From assembly GCA_024405875.1 (NCBI GenBank), contig JAKSOA010000018.1:1-37562 (forward strand): DNA of 37,562 nt, in the 5' to 3' direction. The translations under genes were made by a program, and so were the position numbers. Origin of the DNA: Paludibacteraceae bacterium. Its GTDB lineage: Bacteria > Bacteroidota > Bacteroidia > Bacteroidales > Paludibacteraceae. The notes beneath the pieces are model-generated. The model ran no database searches and had not been told where the DNA came from. It was given only the letters and a program-made list of their open reading frames with translations. Of the stretch, positions 13,470 through 35,196 are shown in pieces (the first letter of the stretch is position 1; each line of letters begins with the position of its first letter).

Positions 13470-14870
13470 CTATTTAGGAACGCCCCACTGTTTGTACTGT
13501 TCCCATTTTGACAGTACGTCATCAACATATTTGACGGTCTCCTCCCCTCTGCAGTAACCTGACTTGCAGATTGAATCTGTATAGTACTCAGGCTCTGATT
13601 TCAGCAATATGTAAGGCTCCACATTGCCCTCCCATACATCGGGGTTCTTTCCATACTTACGGGCGAAAGCACGCCCGTCAAGAATATGTCCCGGACCGGA
13701 ATTATATGCGGCAAGCGTGAACTTTATACGCTCGTTTTTATCATCTATATTTGAGAAAATTCTCTCAAGTTTTTTCAAATATTTGGTACCCGCCGCAATA
13801 CTTTTTTCAGGGTCAAACATATCTACCTCATTCTCAACACCTAATGACTTTGCGGTCTTTGGCATAAGTTGCATAAGTCCGCACGCCCCCGCCCAAGAGA
13901 CAGTGGCAGGATTGAATTTAGACTCCTTATACGCAACGGCTGCCACAAGACGCCAATCCCAATCTATCTGTCTTGCATATTTACGCAACAAGTCATCATA
14001 CGGTGATATTGAGTTCTTTCCGCCAATCTTTGGCAAACCGTTCGCCTCAAAGTATTTACTCTTCTCAAAATACTTCAAGTATATCTTCTTGAACGCTCTC
14101 TGTTTTGAGGCATCGGAGTACCATTCATTCACAAACCCACACAACTCTTTTGAATCAGTTCCGACCGCCCACGCCGCACGTTGCGGGAAACTTACATTTA
14201 CTGAGTAATCTATATTTGAGAAATATGTGCGACTCATAATTGCCATATCTTTGGTGGAGACTGTCCTCTCTGTCTCATTCATCGCAACAGAGGCAATCAG
14301 GTCTTCTGATGAGAGAGAGTCCGGAGCATATTTAATGGTGAGTCCGCCCCCTATCTCATTATTCAAATCACGCATACGCATATCATATATGCTCCCCTTA
14401 CGTACATAGACATCTTTACCGCATAGGTCAAGAACGTCCTTCACCATAGAGTCACTCTTACATTGAACAAGCACCTGATTAGTGACATACTCTTTTTCCG
14501 TAAATAATACCTGAGATTTGTTTTCTAATGAACAGGGAAGTTTATATGCAATGATATCACCCTTACCCTGCGTCAGCATCTCTATCATAGCACTCTCACT
14601 TGGGGCTATTATAAGTTGCATATTAACGCCCAATGCCTCACATAACAGTTTTGACATCTCATACTCGTAACCAAGTTCCTCATCCTTGTAAATAAAGTAT
14701 GATACAGGCCCATACATTGTCAGCACCCTGAGAGTGTCTGACGCCTGAATCTCAGCAAGGCTCCTGGATAAAGATTTCTTATGGGCTCCTGAGCAGGAGA
14801 CTAACAGAGAACATAACGCCAATAATAAGATTAGCACTATCCCCGTAGATTTTTTTAAGAAACAACGCAT
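13470..14870 (-). CDS. MltF-type membrane-bound lytic murein transglycosylase (lipoprotein)
   Basis: This 466-residue lipoprotein cleaves peptidoglycan glycan strands to 1,6-anhydroMurNAc products. The N-terminus is a lipoprotein signal with lipobox LVSC (lipidated Cys26). A periplasmic solute-binding (SBP_bac_3-like) domain spans about residues 47-265, then an SLT domain of about 295-420. The catalytic Glu is E316 in YKESKFNP, followed by the GACGLMQLMP motif and AYNSGPGH. This order (SBP then SLT) defines MltF. Its stop codon is only 3 bp from that of the convergent GH97 gene. The products feed cell-wall recycling, the process suggested for the kinase/MurU pair at 32.9-35.0 kb. Confidence 0.92.
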   Translation of the reverse strand: MRCFLKKSTGIVLILLLALCSLLVSCSGAHKKSLSRSLAEIQASDTLRVLTMYGPVSYFIYKDEELGYEYEMSKLLCEALGVNMQLIIAPSESAMIEMLTQGKGDIIAYKLPCSLENKSQVLFTEKEYVTNQVLVQCKSDSMVKDVLDLCGKDVYVRKGSIYDMRMRDLNNEIGGGLTIKYAPDSLSSEDLIASVAMNETERTVSTKDMAIMSRTYFSNIDYSVNVSFPQRAAWAVGTDSKELCGFVNEWYSDASKQRAFKKIYLKYFEKSKYFEANGLPKIGGKNSISPYDDLLRKYARQIDWDWRLVAAVAYKESKFNPATVSWAGACGLMQLMPKTAKSLGVENEVDMFDPEKSIAAGTKYLKKLERIFSNIDDKNERIKFTLAAYNSGPGHILDGRAFARKYGKNPDVWEGNVEPYILLKSEPEYYTDSICKSGYCRGEETVKYVDDVLSKWEQYKQWGVPK

Positions 14871-15515: not shown

Positions 15516-16307
15516 TTATAGATTATTCTTTTCAATATCCTTGAAATATCTGTATGTACCTACCTTAAGTTCATCTGTAGCGGCATCATCACAAACAATA
15601 ATACCTTTACGGTGCATCTGCAAGGCTGATATAGTCCACATTTGAGTAACTCCACCCTCAACTGCGGCGGCAAGAGCACGCGCCTTGTTATGACCGTTTA
15701 CCAATATAAGCACCTCTTTTGCATCCATAACGGTGCCTACACCTACGGTGAGCGCTGTCTTAGGAACCTTGTTCACATCATTATCAAAGAAACGTGAATT
15801 TGCTATAATAGTGTCGGTTGTAAGAGTCTTGACCCTTGTGCGTGAAGCAAGAGATGAACCCGGCTCATTGAAAGCAATGTGACCGTCAGGTCCTATGCCA
15901 CCAAGGAAAAGGTCTATTCCACCAGCCGCCTTTATTCTTGCCTCGTATCCCTCACATTCAGCGGCAAGGTCTGCGGCATTTCCGTTAAGAATATTCACAT
16001 TATCCCTCTTAATATCAATGTGTGAGAAGAAGTTGTTCCACATAAATGAGTGGTAACTTTCAGGATGGTTCTCCGCCAAAGCGACATACTCGTCCATATT
16101 GAATGTTATAACATTGGCGAATGATACCTTACCCGCTTTGTTAAGTTCTATCAACGCCTTGTACATTCCAAGAGGTGATGAACCCGTAGGAAGTCCTAAT
16201 ACAAAAGGTTTTTCTGCTGTAGGCTTTGCGGCGTTAATCTTTGCAGCCACATAATTTGCCGCCCACTTTGACATACTGTCATAATCCGGTTCAATAATTA
16301 ATCTCAT
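15516..16307 (-). CDS. nagB: Glucosamine-6-phosphate deaminase
   Basis: NagB converts glucosamine-6-phosphate to fructose-6-phosphate and ammonia, linking aminosugar catabolism to glycolysis. Residue numbering coincides with E. coli NagB: catalytic D72 (FNMDEYV) and D141, H143 and E148 ([12 protein letters not shown]). The phosphate-binding [13 protein letters not shown] segment is at about 37-49. The length of 263 aa is normal. It is monocistronic, with no nagA beside it. Its substrate is the ligand known to bind the RapZ C-terminal domain, which is relevant to the fusion kinase at 32.9 kb. Confidence 0.97.
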
Positions 16308-29617: not shown

Positions 29618-32040
29618 GTTCTCTGCTTACTTCAATCAGTGTCTCCGCACTGACTGTATCAGGCAAAATAATGGATGGTTCATCTGCCACTCCGCTTGAC
29701 TTTGTAAATGTCACACTATATAAGATTGGCTCAAGCACACCTGTTGTAGGAGGATTCTCCGATTCAAACGGAAAGTTCAAACTTGAGGCACCTGACGGAG
29801 ACTACACATTCAAGGCTACCTTTGTAGGCTACACAGAGTACAGCAAAAACATTTCAAAAGAGAAAAATTCCGTAAGACTTGGTTTGATAACCTTAAAAGA
29901 GGACTCCAAGCAAATTGCAGAGATTGAGGTTATAGGTCAAAAGTCAGGAATGACACTTGACATAGACAAGAAGATTTTCAATGTTGACCAAAGCGCTATA
30001 AGTGCCGGCTCCACCGCCGCTGAGATTCTTGAGAACATACCATCTGTGAACATAGACATAGAGGGCAATGTGACTTTGAGAAACAGTTCCTCAGTTGAGA
30101 TATGGATTAACGGGAAACCATCGGGGCTATCAGACACTGACAAGGGGCAGATTCTTGAGATGTTGCCCGCTGATGCCGTCAAATCTGTTGAAGTCATAAC
30201 CAACCCGTCAGCCAAATACAACCCTGAGGGCAATGCCGGCATAATAAACATAGTTATGAGAGATGATGCCAAAGGCGGTTATTTTGGAAACGCCAATATT
30301 GGTCTGAACTATAAGGAGGGTTCCCCCTACCCTGGAGGACAAGCCGGATTAAACCTCAACTACAGCAAAAGCAAGTTGGACTTTAACATAAGCGCTAATG
30401 TCAGAAGCAACAGGAATGACCAAAGTTCCATCTTAAACAGAGCGAATTACACAGCCAATGACACAACATACCTTAACCAAAGCAACAAAGGATTCAGTGA
30501 CAGAGTAAACGGATTTATGCGTGCGGGATTCAACTATCGGATTACTGACAATGACGAGATTGGAGTGCAGGCGTTTGGAATGGTTGGTAAGAATTGGAAC
30601 AACAGAGAGATTGACTACATAGAACTAGACCGTCACAAAGATACAACCCAGACAAGAGACCGTTATATGCATTCTGAAGGGTTGATGGCATTCTACAATG
30701 TTACAGCGTCATACAAGCACTCATTCATAAAGGACGCTCATTTTATCTCCGCAGACCTCAACTATTCAGGAAACCAAAGAAAATCAGAGAGCAAATACGC
30801 CACAAACGCATATCTGCCTGACCACACACCCGTCCCCGATAAAAAAGTCAGGGAACTGCAAACTCTTAACAGCCCTGCCAACAGAGCATCCGCCCAAGTG
30901 GACTACTCAAACAAAATTACCAAAGACCACAAAATAGAGGCGGGAATAAAGGCGAGTATGGATATTCAGGATAGTTATGACCACACCTTTGACTCCATTC
31001 CAGGCACAACGGATATAAAGGAGGATATGTCAAAATACAATCCCTTCCACTACTCTGAACAAATATATGCGGCATACATAAATTACGCAGGCAAATTCAA
31101 TTGGTTCTCACTTCAGGCAGGACTCAGGTGTGAGGAGACCATAACAAACACAAGTTCGCTTGTTGACGGAAAAACAGAGAACTACCATCGTAGTTATTTC
31201 CAACCGTTCCCTTCTGTATATTTGGGCTTTGAGATAGACAAGACAAACACCCTTCAACTTAATTATACAAGACGAATAAACCGCCCTCGTGGCAGAATGC
31301 TTAACAGTTACGTTGACCGTGGTGACCCCGCCAACATTTCACAAGGAAACCCGTGGCTTATGCCTGAATTCGGAAACTCCGTTGAGTTAAACTATTTGAA
31401 GACCTGGGATATGCACACACTAAGCGCGGGCTTGTTCTATAACTATACAGAGAATGTGATACAACGTGTAAGCAAACTGCAGTCTGACGGAACTATGTAC
31501 AACACCTTTGAAAACATAACATACTCCCATAACGCAGGAGCAGAGATTGTGGCCAAGAACAGGCTCTTTCATAACTACCTTGACCTAACCACATCACTCT
31601 CAGCCTACTACTATCAATTAGGAGAGAACAAAGAGTACAACATTAAGAGAACCGACACATTCTCCTGGAATGCGAGAATCAACGCCAATGTGAAGATTAT
31701 AGACAATCTTGCCACCCAGGTCAGTGCTTTTTATGACTCTCCAAGAATAGTGGCGCAAGGCTCTGAAGACCACTCCTACGGTTTAGACCTTGGTTTGAAA
31801 GCAACCTTCCTGGCAAAAGCGCTGACAATAAACTTTGCCGTGCGTGATGTGCTTAACTCACGCAGAACAAATAATAAAATAACCCAAAGTGACAATTTCT
31901 ACCAGGAGAACAGGAATACAGACTGCGGCAGACGGTATCGTCTGACAATAACCTACAACTTCGGGAATATGAAGAGCAACAATAAAATGAAGAACCGGGA
32001 TAATAATTCTGAAAATGATTTCCTAGATGAAGAATTTTGA
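29593..32040 (+). CDS. Outer-membrane beta-barrel protein (TonB-receptor-like, OMP_b-brl_3)
   Basis: This 815-residue outer-membrane protein has a signal peptide (cleavage probably after SVSA, near residue 20). A carboxypeptidase-regulatory-like beta-sandwich domain covers about 21-100 (VSGKIMDGSSATPLDFVNV). A plug-like domain covers about 115-225 (AAEILENIPSVNIDIEGNV, SVEVITNPSAKYNPEGNAG). A large barrel of the PF14905 type follows, ending RYRLTITYNFG. A hydrophilic tail of about 25 residues trails the last strand. The substrate cannot be told from sequence, and no SusD partner is adjacent. The next gene starts 26 bp later, so it may be co-transcribed with the coiled-coil protein and the kinase/MurU pair. 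Confidence 0.88.
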   Translation: MKKTALFFCSLLTSISVSALTVSGKIMDGSSATPLDFVNVTLYKIGSSTPVVGGFSDSNGKFKLEAPDGDYTFKATFVGYTEYSKNISKEKNSVRLGLITLKEDSKQIAEIEVIGQKSGMTLDIDKKIFNVDQSAISAGSTAAEILENIPSVNIDIEGNVTLRNSSSVEIWINGKPSGLSDTDKGQILEMLPADAVKSVEVITNPSAKYNPEGNAGIINIVMRDDAKGGYFGNANIGLNYKEGSPYPGGQAGLNLNYSKSKLDFNISANVRSNRNDQSSILNRANYTANDTTYLNQSNKGFSDRVNGFMRAGFNYRITDNDEIGVQAFGMVGKNWNNREIDYIELDRHKDTTQTRDRYMHSEGLMAFYNVTASYKHSFIKDAHFISADLNYSGNQRKSESKYATNAYLPDHTPVPDKKVRELQTLNSPANRASAQVDYSNKITKDHKIEAGIKASMDIQDSYDHTFDSIPGTTDIKEDMSKYNPFHYSEQIYAAYINYAGKFNWFSLQAGLRCEETITNTSSLVDGKTENYHRSYFQPFPSVYLGFEIDKTNTLQLNYTRRINRPRGRMLNSYVDRGDPANISQGNPWLMPEFGNSVELNYLKTWDMHTLSAGLFYNYTENVIQRVSKLQSDGTMYNTFENITYSHNAGAEIVAKNRLFHNYLDLTTSLSAYYYQLGENKEYNIKRTDTFSWNARINANVKIIDNLATQVSAFYDSPRIVAQGSEDHSYGLDLGLKATFLAKALTINFAVRDVLNSRRTNNKITQSDNFYQENRNTDCGRRYRLTITYNFGNMKSNNKMKNRDNNSENDFLDEEF

Positions 32041-32066
32041 GTATCTTTACAAAAAATTTTAAAGCA

Positions 32067-32861
32067 ATGAAAAAACTACTATTGACATTAACCACAGTGC
32101 TGCTGACCTTTGGTGTATCAGCATTCGCCGCTGATGACGAAAACAATTCTGAGAAAGTATCTTTCGCAATCCAAAAGACCGACGGTCCTAACAAGGAGGG
32201 CGTGATGGCATTCACAAAAACCTATCAATACCCTGCAGAAGAGATAGAGGATGCCATACTTGAGAGACTTAAAGGAGAGGGAATCACCGGCAAGAAAGCA
32301 AGCAACAACTACTACGCATTCAAAGGCGTTAAATATAACAACCTCTGGAACCGCACCTGTGATATTTACATAGCGGTTAACGGCTCTCAGAAATCAGGCA
32401 CAATGTATCTGCTTATCTCAACAGGATATGACAACTACATTACAGACAATGACCCTGAAGAGAACAAGAAAATCTCAGATTGGATGGATTCATTAGAGGA
32501 GAACATCAAGAACCACCTCTACAACCACCAACTTGAGAATCAGGAGAAAGAGACCGAAGAGGCTGTAAAGGATTTAAAGGGTATTAAGAAAGAGAAAGAG
32601 AAGATAGAGAAGAAGATTGCAGATAATGAAAAGGATATAAAGACATTGGAGGCTACACGCACCGTGGTTGATGAGACTAACGCAAACACCGTAGATGCCA
32701 ACGTATTGAAAAAGGAGCAAAAACTGTATGACAAACTTATGGACAAACGTAACAAGCTCCAATATGACCTTGACAATATCAACTCTAAACTTGAGGCGGC
32801 AAGAGACAAATTCAGTTCAAAGAAAGAGGAGTTGAAAAAACTGAAAGAAAACCGTCCATAA
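32067..32861 (+). CDS. Secreted protein of unknown function with C-terminal coiled coil
   Basis: I do not recognise this protein. It has a clear signal peptide (MKKLLLTLTTVLLTFGVSAFA) and is predicted to be periplasmic. Residues about 28-150 form a mixed domain with aromatic-rich segments (NNYYAFKGVKYNNLWNRTC) and one cysteine. From about 155 to the end, a highly charged Lys/Glu-rich helix (KKEKEKIEKKIADNEKDIK) strongly suggests a coiled coil. I chose the ATG at 32067. An upstream TTG would add ten residues before the signal peptide and overlap the preceding gene. It lies 10 bp before the fusion kinase. Confidence 0.8.
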   Translation: MKKLLLTLTTVLLTFGVSAFAADDENNSEKVSFAIQKTDGPNKEGVMAFTKTYQYPAEEIEDAILERLKGEGITGKKASNNYYAFKGVKYNNLWNRTCDIYIAVNGSQKSGTMYLLISTGYDNYITDNDPEENKKISDWMDSLEENIKNHLYNHQLENQEKETEEAVKDLKGIKKEKEKIEKKIADNEKDIKTLEATRTVVDETNANTVDANVLKKEQKLYDKLMDKRNKLQYDLDNINSKLEAARDKFSSKKEELKKLKENRP

Positions 32862-32871
32862 GAGAACATTT

Positions 32872-34284
32872 ATGAATGAGCTTCTGAAACTATTATCCCC
32901 GACAGGTGATACAATTCAGAAAACAGAGGTAATCTCCGGTTCAGGTTCAAACAGAAAATATTACAGATTCTATGGTTTGAACAAGAGTTATATCGGGGTT
33001 TACGGGAAAGATGTTCAGGAGAACAAGACATTCATAGAGCTATCATCACATTTTAGGAGACACAATATTAAAGTTCCTCAGGTACTTGCTGTATCTGAGG
33101 ATTTTCATTACTACATAACTGAGGATTTAGGAAGCACTGACCTATTTTCAATAATAGGGTCAAGTGAGGTGTTGGATTTGCTTGTAAAAACCATTAAGGC
33201 ACTGCCTGAAATTCAGTTTGCGGCAGGTGCGGATATGAACTACAATATCTGCTATCCACAAAAAGAGTTTGATTTCCACACTGTATTCTGGGACCTCAAC
33301 TATTTCAAATATGAATTTCTGAAACCTGCAGGCATTGAGTTTGACGAACTGCGGTTGGAGTCAGATTTTGAACATTTCGCCTCAATACTCCTCTCTGTAC
33401 ACACAAACACATTTATGTATAGAGATTTCCAATCACGTAACATAATGATAAAAGACAATGAGCCCTGGTTCATTGACTTTCAAGGCGGTAGAAAAGGTCC
33501 TTACTACTATGATTTAGCCTCATTTGTATATCAGGCGAAGGCTAAATACAGCAAAGAGACAAAAGAACTGCTCATTAACACCTACATTGACTCTGCATCA
33601 AAGTACATAGATATAAAGCCTGCTGATTTCCGTAAGACATTCGGATATTTTGTCCTATTCAGAGCATTACAAACACTTGGAGCCTACGGATTCAGAGGAC
33701 TTGTGGAGCATAAGGCGCACTTTATACAGAGTATTCCGTTTGCAATTGATAACCTCTCAGAGATACTTCAAGAGTATGACTACTCCAAACTGCCATACCT
33801 GACTGAGATATTGAATGAACTAATTGACGGATATAAGAGACCATTTATAAACAACACAGCCGAACTTGTAGTAAAAGTATTCAGCTTCTCATATAAAAAA
33901 GGAATACCTATGGACTATTCAGGTAATGGCGGAGGATTTGTATTTGACTGCCGCGCCGTTCATAATCCTGGAAAATACCCCGAATACAAAGATAAGACCG
34001 GACTTGACAAAGAGGTGATAGATTTTGTTGAAAAGAACGGAGAGTTGGCTGTTTTCCTTGATAGCGTCTATAAGTTAGCAGATGCCTCAGTAAGCAGATA
34101 CCTGAAAAGAGGATTTACAGACCTTATGTTCTCATTTGGTTGCACAGGTGGACAACACCGCTCTGTTTATGCCGCGCAACACTTGGCAGAGCATATAAAT
34201 AATAAGTTTGGAGTAAAAGTAATTCTTGAACATACCGCCAGACAAATATCGTCTGTATTGGAGACAAAGGAGGTTAAGCAATGA
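32872..34284 (+). CDS. AmgK-like sugar kinase domain fused to a RapZ C-terminal domain
   Basis: Residues about 1-310 form an aminoglycoside-phosphotransferase/choline-kinase fold. The catalytic loop YRDFQSRNIM has Asp185 and Asn190, and the Mg-binding Asp202 is in WFIDFQGG. The family includes AmgK, which phosphorylates MurNAc and GlcNAc at C1. Residues about 334-462 match the C-terminal domain of RapZ: FVFDCRAVHNPG, KTGLDKEVIDFVE and GCTGGQHRSVY (from G423). In E. coli that domain binds glucosamine-6-phosphate, and this loop lines the pocket. The RapZ ATPase domain is absent. The stop overlaps the MurU-like gene by ATGA. The kinase substrate is inferred; other sugars or choline are possible. 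Confidence 0.8.
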   Translation: MNELLKLLSPTGDTIQKTEVISGSGSNRKYYRFYGLNKSYIGVYGKDVQENKTFIELSSHFRRHNIKVPQVLAVSEDFHYYITEDLGSTDLFSIIGSSEVLDLLVKTIKALPEIQFAAGADMNYNICYPQKEFDFHTVFWDLNYFKYEFLKPAGIEFDELRLESDFEHFASILLSVHTNTFMYRDFQSRNIMIKDNEPWFIDFQGGRKGPYYYDLASFVYQAKAKYSKETKELLINTYIDSASKYIDIKPADFRKTFGYFVLFRALQTLGAYGFRGLVEHKAHFIQSIPFAIDNLSEILQEYDYSKLPYLTEILNELIDGYKRPFINNTAELVVKVFSFSYKKGIPMDYSGNGGGFVFDCRAVHNPGKYPEYKDKTGLDKEVIDFVEKNGELAVFLDSVYKLADASVSRYLKRGFTDLMFSFGCTGGQHRSVYAAQHLAEHINNKFGVKVILEHTARQISSVLETKEVKQ

Positions 34285-35015
34285 AAGCAATGATATTTGC
34301 GGCAGGTCTTGGAACACGCCTTAAACCGCTCACTGATACAATGTCAAAGGCACTCGTACCCATTGCCGGTAAGACACTGCTTGAACACACAATCTGTAGA
34401 TTAAAAAATGAAGGATTCTTTGACATTGTAATAAATGTGCACCACTTTGCAGAGCAGATAATAACATTTCTTGACACCAACAATAATTTTGGATTGAACA
34501 TTTCAATCTCTGATGAGAGAGGAATGCTTCTTGAAACAGGCGGAGGAATACGCAAGGCGGAGCCACTACTCGGCTCAGAACCGTTCCTTATACATAATGT
34601 GGATATAATATCAAACGCCCCGCTGAGAGATTTATATGCAACTCATTTGGCCTCTAAGGCAGACGCCACACTACTTGTAAGTGAGCGTAAATCATCCAGA
34701 GCGCTTCTATTTGATTCAGAGAACAAATTAAAGGCATGGAAGAACAAACAGACAGGTGAAATTAAAACACCTTTCAAAAATTTGGATACAAATTCTCTTG
34801 AAGAATACGCTTTTAGCGGAATCCACATCTTTTCCCCTAAACTATTCCCACTTATGCAGAAATACCCTGCAAAATTTCCTATTATGGACTTCTACCTTGA
34901 TGTCTGCAAAACAGCAAACATCAAAGCTTCTGTTTCATCAGACTTAAAACTTATAGATGTAGGTAAGTTAGATTCACTTGCAGAAGCGGAGAGACTAACT
35001 GAAAGCTTAGGGTGA
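34281..35015 (+). CDS. murU: MurU-like sugar-1-phosphate nucleotidyltransferase
   Basis: This 244-residue protein has the NTP-transferase fold. The N-terminal signature is MKAMIFAAGLGTRLKPLT with Lys in SKALVPIAGK. The motif GMLLETGGGIRKAEPLLG closely resembles MurU, which makes UDP-MurNAc from MurNAc-1-phosphate and UTP. Glucose- or mannose-1-phosphate enzymes usually have a different sequence there. The metal-binding Asp is in LIHNVDIIS. No C-terminal hexapeptide (acetyltransferase) domain is present. The 4-bp overlap with the upstream kinase supports a two-step kinase/uridylyltransferase route, as in Pseudomonas and Tannerella. A heptose or other sugar route is the main alternative. Confidence 0.78.
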   Translation: MKAMIFAAGLGTRLKPLTDTMSKALVPIAGKTLLEHTICRLKNEGFFDIVINVHHFAEQIITFLDTNNNFGLNISISDERGMLLETGGGIRKAEPLLGSEPFLIHNVDIISNAPLRDLYATHLASKADATLLVSERKSSRALLFDSENKLKAWKNKQTGEIKTPFKNLDTNSLEEYAFSGIHIFSPKLFPLMQKYPAKFPIMDFYLDVCKTANIKASVSSDLKLIDVGKLDSLAEAERLTESLG

Positions 35016-35063
35016 ATTTACGCCTTCCTGAGCGTAGCTAAGGAACTCGTAATCATTCCTACT

Positions 35064-35132
35064 CGTCATGTTGAGCGTTAGCGAAACATCTCAGAATGTT
35101 TAGTAGATTCTTCGCTATCGCTCAGAATGACG
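35064..35132. repeat. Palindromic intergenic repeat (two inverted copies)
   Basis: The 5' arm (CGTCAT..TGAGCG.TAGCGAA..ATC, from 35064) and the 3' arm (GAT..TTCGCTA.CGCTCA..ATGACG, ending 35132) are inverted copies of one unit. Paired, they give a stem of about 27 positions with five mismatches. A degenerate third copy (CGCTTGAGATGACG) follows at 35140-35153, and the same family recurs near 37432. It resembles the REP/MITE-like palindromes common in Bacteroidota genomes and may help end the murU transcript. Confidence 0.75.
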
Positions 35133-35196
35133 GGTGGAGACGCTTGAGATGACGATATGTGAGGGCTGATTAATGTCGTGACTCGGCTTAACACAA

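Follow-up and report, generated by a model that had tools for sequence, protein, structure and literature searches.

A kinase of the AmgK type fused to a RapZ C-terminal domain and paired with a MurU-like uridylyltransferase in Bacteroidota: a possible amino-sugar-6-phosphate phosphatase in cell-wall salvage

Two overlapping genes of a gut-type Paludibacteraceae bacterium raise the question of why a kinase related to those of cell-wall sugar salvage should carry the C-terminal domain of RapZ, and what this domain does there. The window, i.e. the whole stretch of DNA analysed, comprises 37,562 nucleotides (contig JAKSOA010000018.1). We put the probability that the salvage pair carries the RapZ-type domain as an amino-sugar-6-phosphate phosphatase feeding the kinase at about 40%. 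The genes and their parts are located as follows:

32872..34284, + strand: fusion gene, AmgK-like anomeric amino-sugar kinase plus RapZ C-terminal domain, 470 aa
32872..33837, + strand: kinase domain, residues 1-322, APH fold; R184, D185, N190 and D202 invariant
33838..33861, + strand: interdomain linker, approximately residues 323-330; model confidence is low at 326-328
33862..34281, + strand: RapZ C-terminal domain, residues 331-470; aligned to PDB 5o5s over 331-459
33922..33954, + strand: glycine-rich insert and VFDCR, residues 351-361; G353-G355, D359 and R361 invariant
33964..33972, + strand: Asn-Pro-Gly, residues 365-367; Gly at the place of the E. coli RapZ pocket residue H190
34141..34164, + strand: C-X5-R-S loop CTGGQHRS, putatively phosphate-binding, residues 424-431, corresponding to E. 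coli C247-S254
34281..35015, + strand: MurU-like N-acetylmuramate-1-phosphate uridylyltransferase, 244 aa; ATGA is shared by its start and the stop of the fusion gene

The original prediction of a sugar kinase joined to a RapZ-type domain was borne out by Pfam, NCBIfam and PDB matches. Pfam assigned APH to residues 49-223 of the fusion protein (3.8e-10) and the RapZ C-terminal domain PF22740 to residues 333-455 (2.9e-32, over the cut-off). The relevant best NCBIfam model for the kinase part was AmgK NF045759 (6.5e-13), whose equivalog cut-off of 550 was not reached with 48.5 bits; the Tannerella forsythia relative scored 66.3. With 324 and 360 positions, the AmgK models of NCBIfam correspond to the kinase part only, and the RapZ domain is extra in the window. 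The catalytic Asp and Asn of the APH fold are kept, as had been claimed. The whole-protein RapZ model NF003828 gave 98.1 bits, below its cut-off of 244, and the match starts at profile position 155, which agrees with the predicted loss of the RapZ ATPase domain; in comparison with E. coli RapZ (5o5s), the kinase stands in its place. The closest solved sequences in a PDB search were RapZ for the tail and 3csv, a putative aminoglycoside phosphotransferase, for the kinase. The comparison of the C-terminal part with the E. coli RapZ structure, which had been proposed as a check, gave the RapZ fold as the best match, with others such as the phosphofructokinase sugar domain far below. Linked RecA constructs (3cmu, 3.7e-7) that appeared in the PDB search with the domain only were rejected as a repeat artefact, no stretch passing alone. 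A single copy of PF22740 was found in the genome of the window (1.85 Mb, 78.7% complete).

The MurU-like nature of the next gene and the ATGA overlap were likewise confirmed by profile, PDB matches and coordinates. Its product matched nucleotidyl transferase in Pfam (3.2e-21) and MurU NF045761 over residues 1-238 of 244 (3.5e-41; 141.5 with an equivalog cut-off of 250, not reached). Its closest solved structures are PDB 4y7t (1.1e-23), listed as a nucleotidyl transferase, which we take to be P. putida MurU, and 8hhd (1.3e-20), named MurU. The same combination of an APH-fold kinase and a MurU-like uridylyltransferase in one operon is known as the AmgK-MurU pair of Pseudomonas; a fused RapZ domain goes unmentioned in the passages of the AmgK-MurU literature examined.

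Several other features of the window were recorded. A gene at 32037-32861 (+), ending 10 bases upstream of the fusion gene, encodes a protein of 274 residues that begins with a signal-like segment, ends in a coiled-coil-like tail rich in Lys and Glu, and has no Pfam match; it may share the transcript. The intergenic region downstream of the MurU-like gene (35016-35190) contains repeat-like motifs around GTCATGTTGAGCGTTAGCGAAACATCTCAGAAT, seen by eye only, and a promoter and terminator scan gave sites no more numerous than in shuffles. Farther away, on the minus strand, lie a protein of the glucosamine-6-phosphate isomerase/6-phosphogluconolactonase family (15516-16307, PF01182, 3.1e-22), which, if it is NagB, acts on the metabolite sensed by RapZ in E. 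coli, and a lytic transglycosylase with solute-binding and SLT domains (13470-14870), presumably MltF-like by its architecture and a source of anhydro-muropeptides.

A survey of Bacteroidota for the fusion and its murU neighbour, suggested together with the original prediction, found both to be widely conserved. Among 296 phylum genomes drawn evenly, 36 had PF22740. At the 30 phylum loci examined, the window's own among them, kinase and domain form one fused gene in 27, are followed by MurU as three consecutive genes in one (L014), and in two the domain has no kinase within 1.5 kb; a MurU-like gene lies in the flank of 22/30. The remaining six carriers belong to one family (f5), in which kinase and domain are side by side by coordinates in 6/6, and both f5 loci that were examined contain kinase, domain and MurU in a row. 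As the kinases of these two rows nest with support within the fused clade of the kinase tree, a later split of the fusion is the simpler reading for them. The position of L014 is unresolved in this tree, and its genus-mate G124 has the fused form. The kinase profile, built from 28 carriers, matched 36/36 carriers, 28 of them by construction. Matches better than 1e-70 were found in 37 phylum genomes, among which only G009 is without the domain. Within the window's order, an even draw of 148 genomes had the domain in 124, namely in frames of at least 398 residues in 116 and in frames below 300 in eight.

Loci in named genome records were ranked by their similarity to the window; the best 80 of at least 594 include T. 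forsythia ATCC 43037 (L071), Phocaeicola vulgatus ATCC 8482 (L090) and Parabacteroides species. Seventy-nine of these best 80 are fused, and a contig end interrupts the remaining one. MurU follows downstream on the same strand in 78, at a distance of at most 250 bases in 77. When the neighbours of these best 80 of at least 594 loci were clustered, the MurU cluster was found in 73 and every other cluster in at most seven, which makes MurU the sole recurring neighbour of the fusion in this set. The nearest relative among the matches listed belongs to a horse-faeces genome of Paludibacteraceae and is 76% identical over the kinase. A Parabacteroides distasonis copy of 476 aa (WP_005858754.1) carries the annotation 'RNase adapter RapZ'; its gene (L163, 2981-4411) lies near a site-specific integrase on NZ_OY725790.1, a 278 kb record labelled as a plasmid. 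The fusion of known parts is thus real and conserved. This architecture is without description in the open-licence PubMed Central literature searched, in which no report linking RapZ to AmgK was found.

Two other arrangements were observed in the phylum. In genomes G180 (L146 4935-5336) and G271 (L148 6083-6493), the RapZ C-terminal domain is a gene of its own, of 133 and 136 residues respectively, and the stretch examined around it contains no match to the kinase or to MurU; the neighbours (a nuclease with a sorting tail, DUF4349, an MFS transporter, BNR repeats) have no common theme. AnmK is present in both genomes, with no strong MurQ match. Their kinase matches, on long branches and with no MurU in the stretch examined, may not be true AmgK. 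In family f18, a distant AmgK-like kinase gene overlaps a MurU-like gene (L151 2687-4680, L152 5934-7894) in a lineage without the RapZ domain and without AnmK.

The activity of the kinase part can be approached through T. forsythia, which has been assigned the AmgK-MurU route (passage in PMC7670621) and whose AmgK and MurU were used in an E. coli strain to take up MurNAc probes (passage in PMC13041923). The only AmgK-MurU pair seen in T. forsythia ATCC 43037 is the fusion at L071, the same as in the window and with a 4-base overlap with MurU. The fusion architecture is therefore probably active as a MurNAc 1-kinase, assuming that L071 corresponds to the cloned T. forsythia gene.

The domain itself was compared with E. 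coli RapZ, in which the anion pocket consists of H190, T248, G249, H252 and R253, with C247 nearby (passages in PMC5737377 and PMC9841335). We confirmed this numbering on the E. coli RapZ sequence; the equivalents of H190, T248, G249, H252, R253 and C247 in the window are G367, T425, G426, H429, R430 and C424, respectively. T248, G249, H252 and R253 are thus kept in the fusion domain, whereas the full E. coli-type pocket is absent: the H190 position is Gly in 30/30 phylum loci and 74/74 order sequences. Canonical RapZ domains (11, drawn from 52 matching records via a spread listing of 15) have His, Tyr or Phe there. The glycine-rich insert before VFD is found in the fusion type only and is absent from the 11 canonical domains, and the two sets separate with full support in the domain tree. 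For these comparisons, alignment A2 comprised the window and 73 of the 79 fused loci (L046, L054, L066, L069, L072 and L089 were thinned; L084 is incomplete), and A3 was A2 minus L092 as well, in which the domain start is misplaced. The fusion domain would accordingly have the same chemistry in a roomier pocket, perhaps with another ligand; the invariant Gly and the insert are the reason why the ligand may differ from that of E. coli RapZ. Our guess would be MurNAc-6-phosphate, with its lactyl group.

The RapZ-type loop predicted in the C-terminal third is indeed present, and its C, T, G, G, H, R and S are invariant in 30/30 phylum loci and 74/74 order sequences. Its Cys, Arg and Ser are invariant also in 11/11 canonical RapZ domains, one of which has Ser at the T425 position. 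Residues constant across 11 canonical and 11 fusion-type domains include D359, R361, N365, P366, C424, G426, G427, H429, R430, S431 and H454. C-X5-R-S is the phosphate-loop signature of cysteine phosphatases. HCX5R is given as the motif of this class in a passage of PMC6355987. The pattern C-X5-R-[ST] appeared in 1.3% of 20,000 shuffles of the fusion protein. In the predicted structure, a strand leads to the Cys, after which come the loop, the Arg and a helix, so that the signature lies between strand and helix as in cysteine phosphatases, and the matching site of E. coli RapZ binds sulphate or malonate. In contrast, the overall fold of these enzymes, protein-tyrosine-phosphatase included, was not encountered among the 50 Foldseek and 50 VIA-align matches listed for the domain.

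On these grounds we propose that the gene pair would form the final section of an anabolic route for the salvage of cell-wall sugars. As suggested by its family and gene pair, the kinase would phosphorylate N-acetylmuramic acid, perhaps GlcNAc too, at C1, and the MurU-like enzyme would convert the product to UDP-MurNAc. The fused domain would bind an amino-sugar 6-phosphate, most likely MurNAc-6-phosphate, in the C-X5-R-S loop, its invariant Cys would take the phosphate off, and free MurNAc would be passed to the kinase. This would be the step of MupP in Pseudomonas, where AnmK makes MurNAc-6P, which MupP must dephosphorylate before AmgK acts (passage in PMC5371407). The proposed function is the same, although MupP belongs to the HAD family according to that source and the fusion protein has no HAD match in Pfam. 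The wider proposal is more doubtful: that the RapZ C-terminal domain in general is a cysteine-dependent amino-sugar-6-phosphate phosphatase, which in Bacteroidota has become an AmgK-fused bifunctional MurNAc-6-phosphate phosphatase/MurNAc 1-kinase replacing MupP, and from which the E. coli sensor descends.

Data on other RapZ proteins bear on this proposal in both directions. In E. coli RapZ, both C247A and C247S abolish activity, a catalytic role of the thiol was suggested, and density of probably transformed GlcN6P is mentioned (passages in PMC9841335). Since the cysteine is essential there and a catalytic role has been suggested, an enzyme fits at least as well as a sensor. However, the pocket and C247 variants tested did not bring down GlmZ (same source), and lost GlmZ binding alone could explain their inactivity. 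YvcJ, the B. subtilis homologue, 'exhibits NTPase and phosphatase activities', and a Xanthomonas protein with both activities is cited by title (passages in PMC7525490), but the phosphatase activity of YvcJ may reside in its ATPase domain and not in the C-terminal one. A link between RapZ, phosphatase and CX5R was not found in the open-licence PubMed Central literature.

If the domain does the work of MupP, it should co-occur with AnmK. In the 148 genomes of the order, both were present in 93, the domain only in 31, AnmK only in six and neither in 18, i.e. the domain was found in 93/99 genomes with AnmK and in 31/49 without it (p 5e-6, deeper kinship ignored). With one genome per family, the corresponding numbers were 70, 20, 4 and 13, i.e. 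70/74 and 20/33 (p 3e-5, deeper kinship ignored). Across the 296 phylum genomes there was no association (AnmK in 25/36 genomes with the domain and 182/260 without it; odds ratio 0.97). None of the 62 phylum genomes with the kinase but without the domain is among the 207 AnmK matches; we give this no weight because 61/62 belong to family f18 with its distant kinase. AnmK lies at most 17 kb from the domain in 2/25 genomes (G005 and G271) and otherwise farther away or on other contigs.

In the order, AnmK was not detected in 31/124 carriers in all; carriers in which it was not detected include the incomplete genome of the window, the two other sampled members of its family, T. forsythia, P. vulgatus and Bacteroidales F22. 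MurQ, which also consumes MurNAc-6P and so counts against a phosphatase, was found in 16/36 phylum carriers (14 over the curated cut-off, one of them with an internal stop, and two just under); P. vulgatus and T. forsythia have it as well. The need for a phosphatase would be greatest where AnmK is present and MurQ is not, as in 12/36 phylum carriers. Among carriers with a completeness of 99% or more, 7/7 of those with neither AnmK nor MurQ gave strong matches to MurK-like kinases (PF01869), so that a source of the 6-phosphate may exist there; the search is insensitive, since T. forsythia, with a published MurK, gave no match. T. forsythia makes MurNAc-6P by MurK (passage in PMC5790795), and there a phosphatase beside AmgK would bring it back into anabolic salvage. 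The MupP model NF009696 gave 0/40 genomes over its cut-off, which cannot show that MupP is absent because the controls, Caulobacter included, also gave 0/14. In the single-contig genome G281, three HAD_2 proteins score best on models other than MupP.

The strongest alternative, which we regard as a serious possibility with the odds somewhat against it, is a sensor that binds GlcN6P or MurNAc-6P, both amino-sugar 6-phosphates, without turnover and switches the kinase on or off, so that salvage follows the precursor pool. The C-terminal domain of E. coli RapZ binds GlcN6P at 10 nM and signals (passage in PMC7073468). The original prediction was of this kind, with glucosamine-6-phosphate gating the kinase: the four retained pocket residues speak for it, whereas the invariant Gly at H190 and the glycine-rich insert speak against the same ligand. 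A sensor also accounts for the carriers without AnmK, since practically all bacteria produce GlcN6P. On the other hand, mere binding needs no invariant cysteine, the linker is of low confidence, and some lineages have kept the domain as a gene of its own, which in two is not linked to a kinase. The separate gene beside the kinase in f5, for which a later split is the simpler reading at the two loci examined, indicates that tethering is not required.

An assembly role, in which the domain would chiefly serve to dimerise the kinase or to dock MurU so that MurNAc-1-phosphate is channelled, its pocket being a relic, is improbable: the C-terminal domain of E. coli RapZ forms a dimer (passage in PMC5737377) and the pairing with MurU is tight, but a relic would hardly keep D359, R361, C424, H429, R430, S431 and H454 invariant. 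RNA binding as in E. coli, tying the level or activity of the kinase to RNA, is very improbable: RapZ there contacts GlmZ through the same pocket (passage in PMC9841335), but its basic RNA-binding tail, restricted to Enterobacteriaceae (passage in PMC7073468), is not seen in the alignment of the fusion domain, and the position of the RNA-contacting K251 is Gln in 69/74 and Arg in 5/74, though canonical RapZ domains vary there too. As this tail is not seen, action without a small RNA, as originally proposed, is plausible.

The phosphatase is narrowly favoured over the sensor; the probability left by the four explanations goes to something else. We counted for the phosphatase the domain and fold assignments, the MurU pairing, the invariant loop, the AnmK link in the order, the separate gene in f5 and the low-confidence linker. 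Against it we counted the missing AnmK link across the phylum, MurQ in many carriers, the lack of a phosphatase fold match and the GlcN6P-binding sensor of E. coli.

The domain is present in gut and oral species, and the label carried by the Parabacteroides copy hides a probable cell-wall enzyme. T. forsythia is described as being without MurA and MurB (passage in PMC7670621), and its UDP-MurNAc would come mainly or solely through the AmgK-MurU route. As a sensor, the domain would be a direct metabolite switch on cell-wall recycling. If it is a phosphatase, the MupP step would be supplied in Bacteroidota, and RapZ, a textbook RNA regulator, would be recast as a former enzyme.
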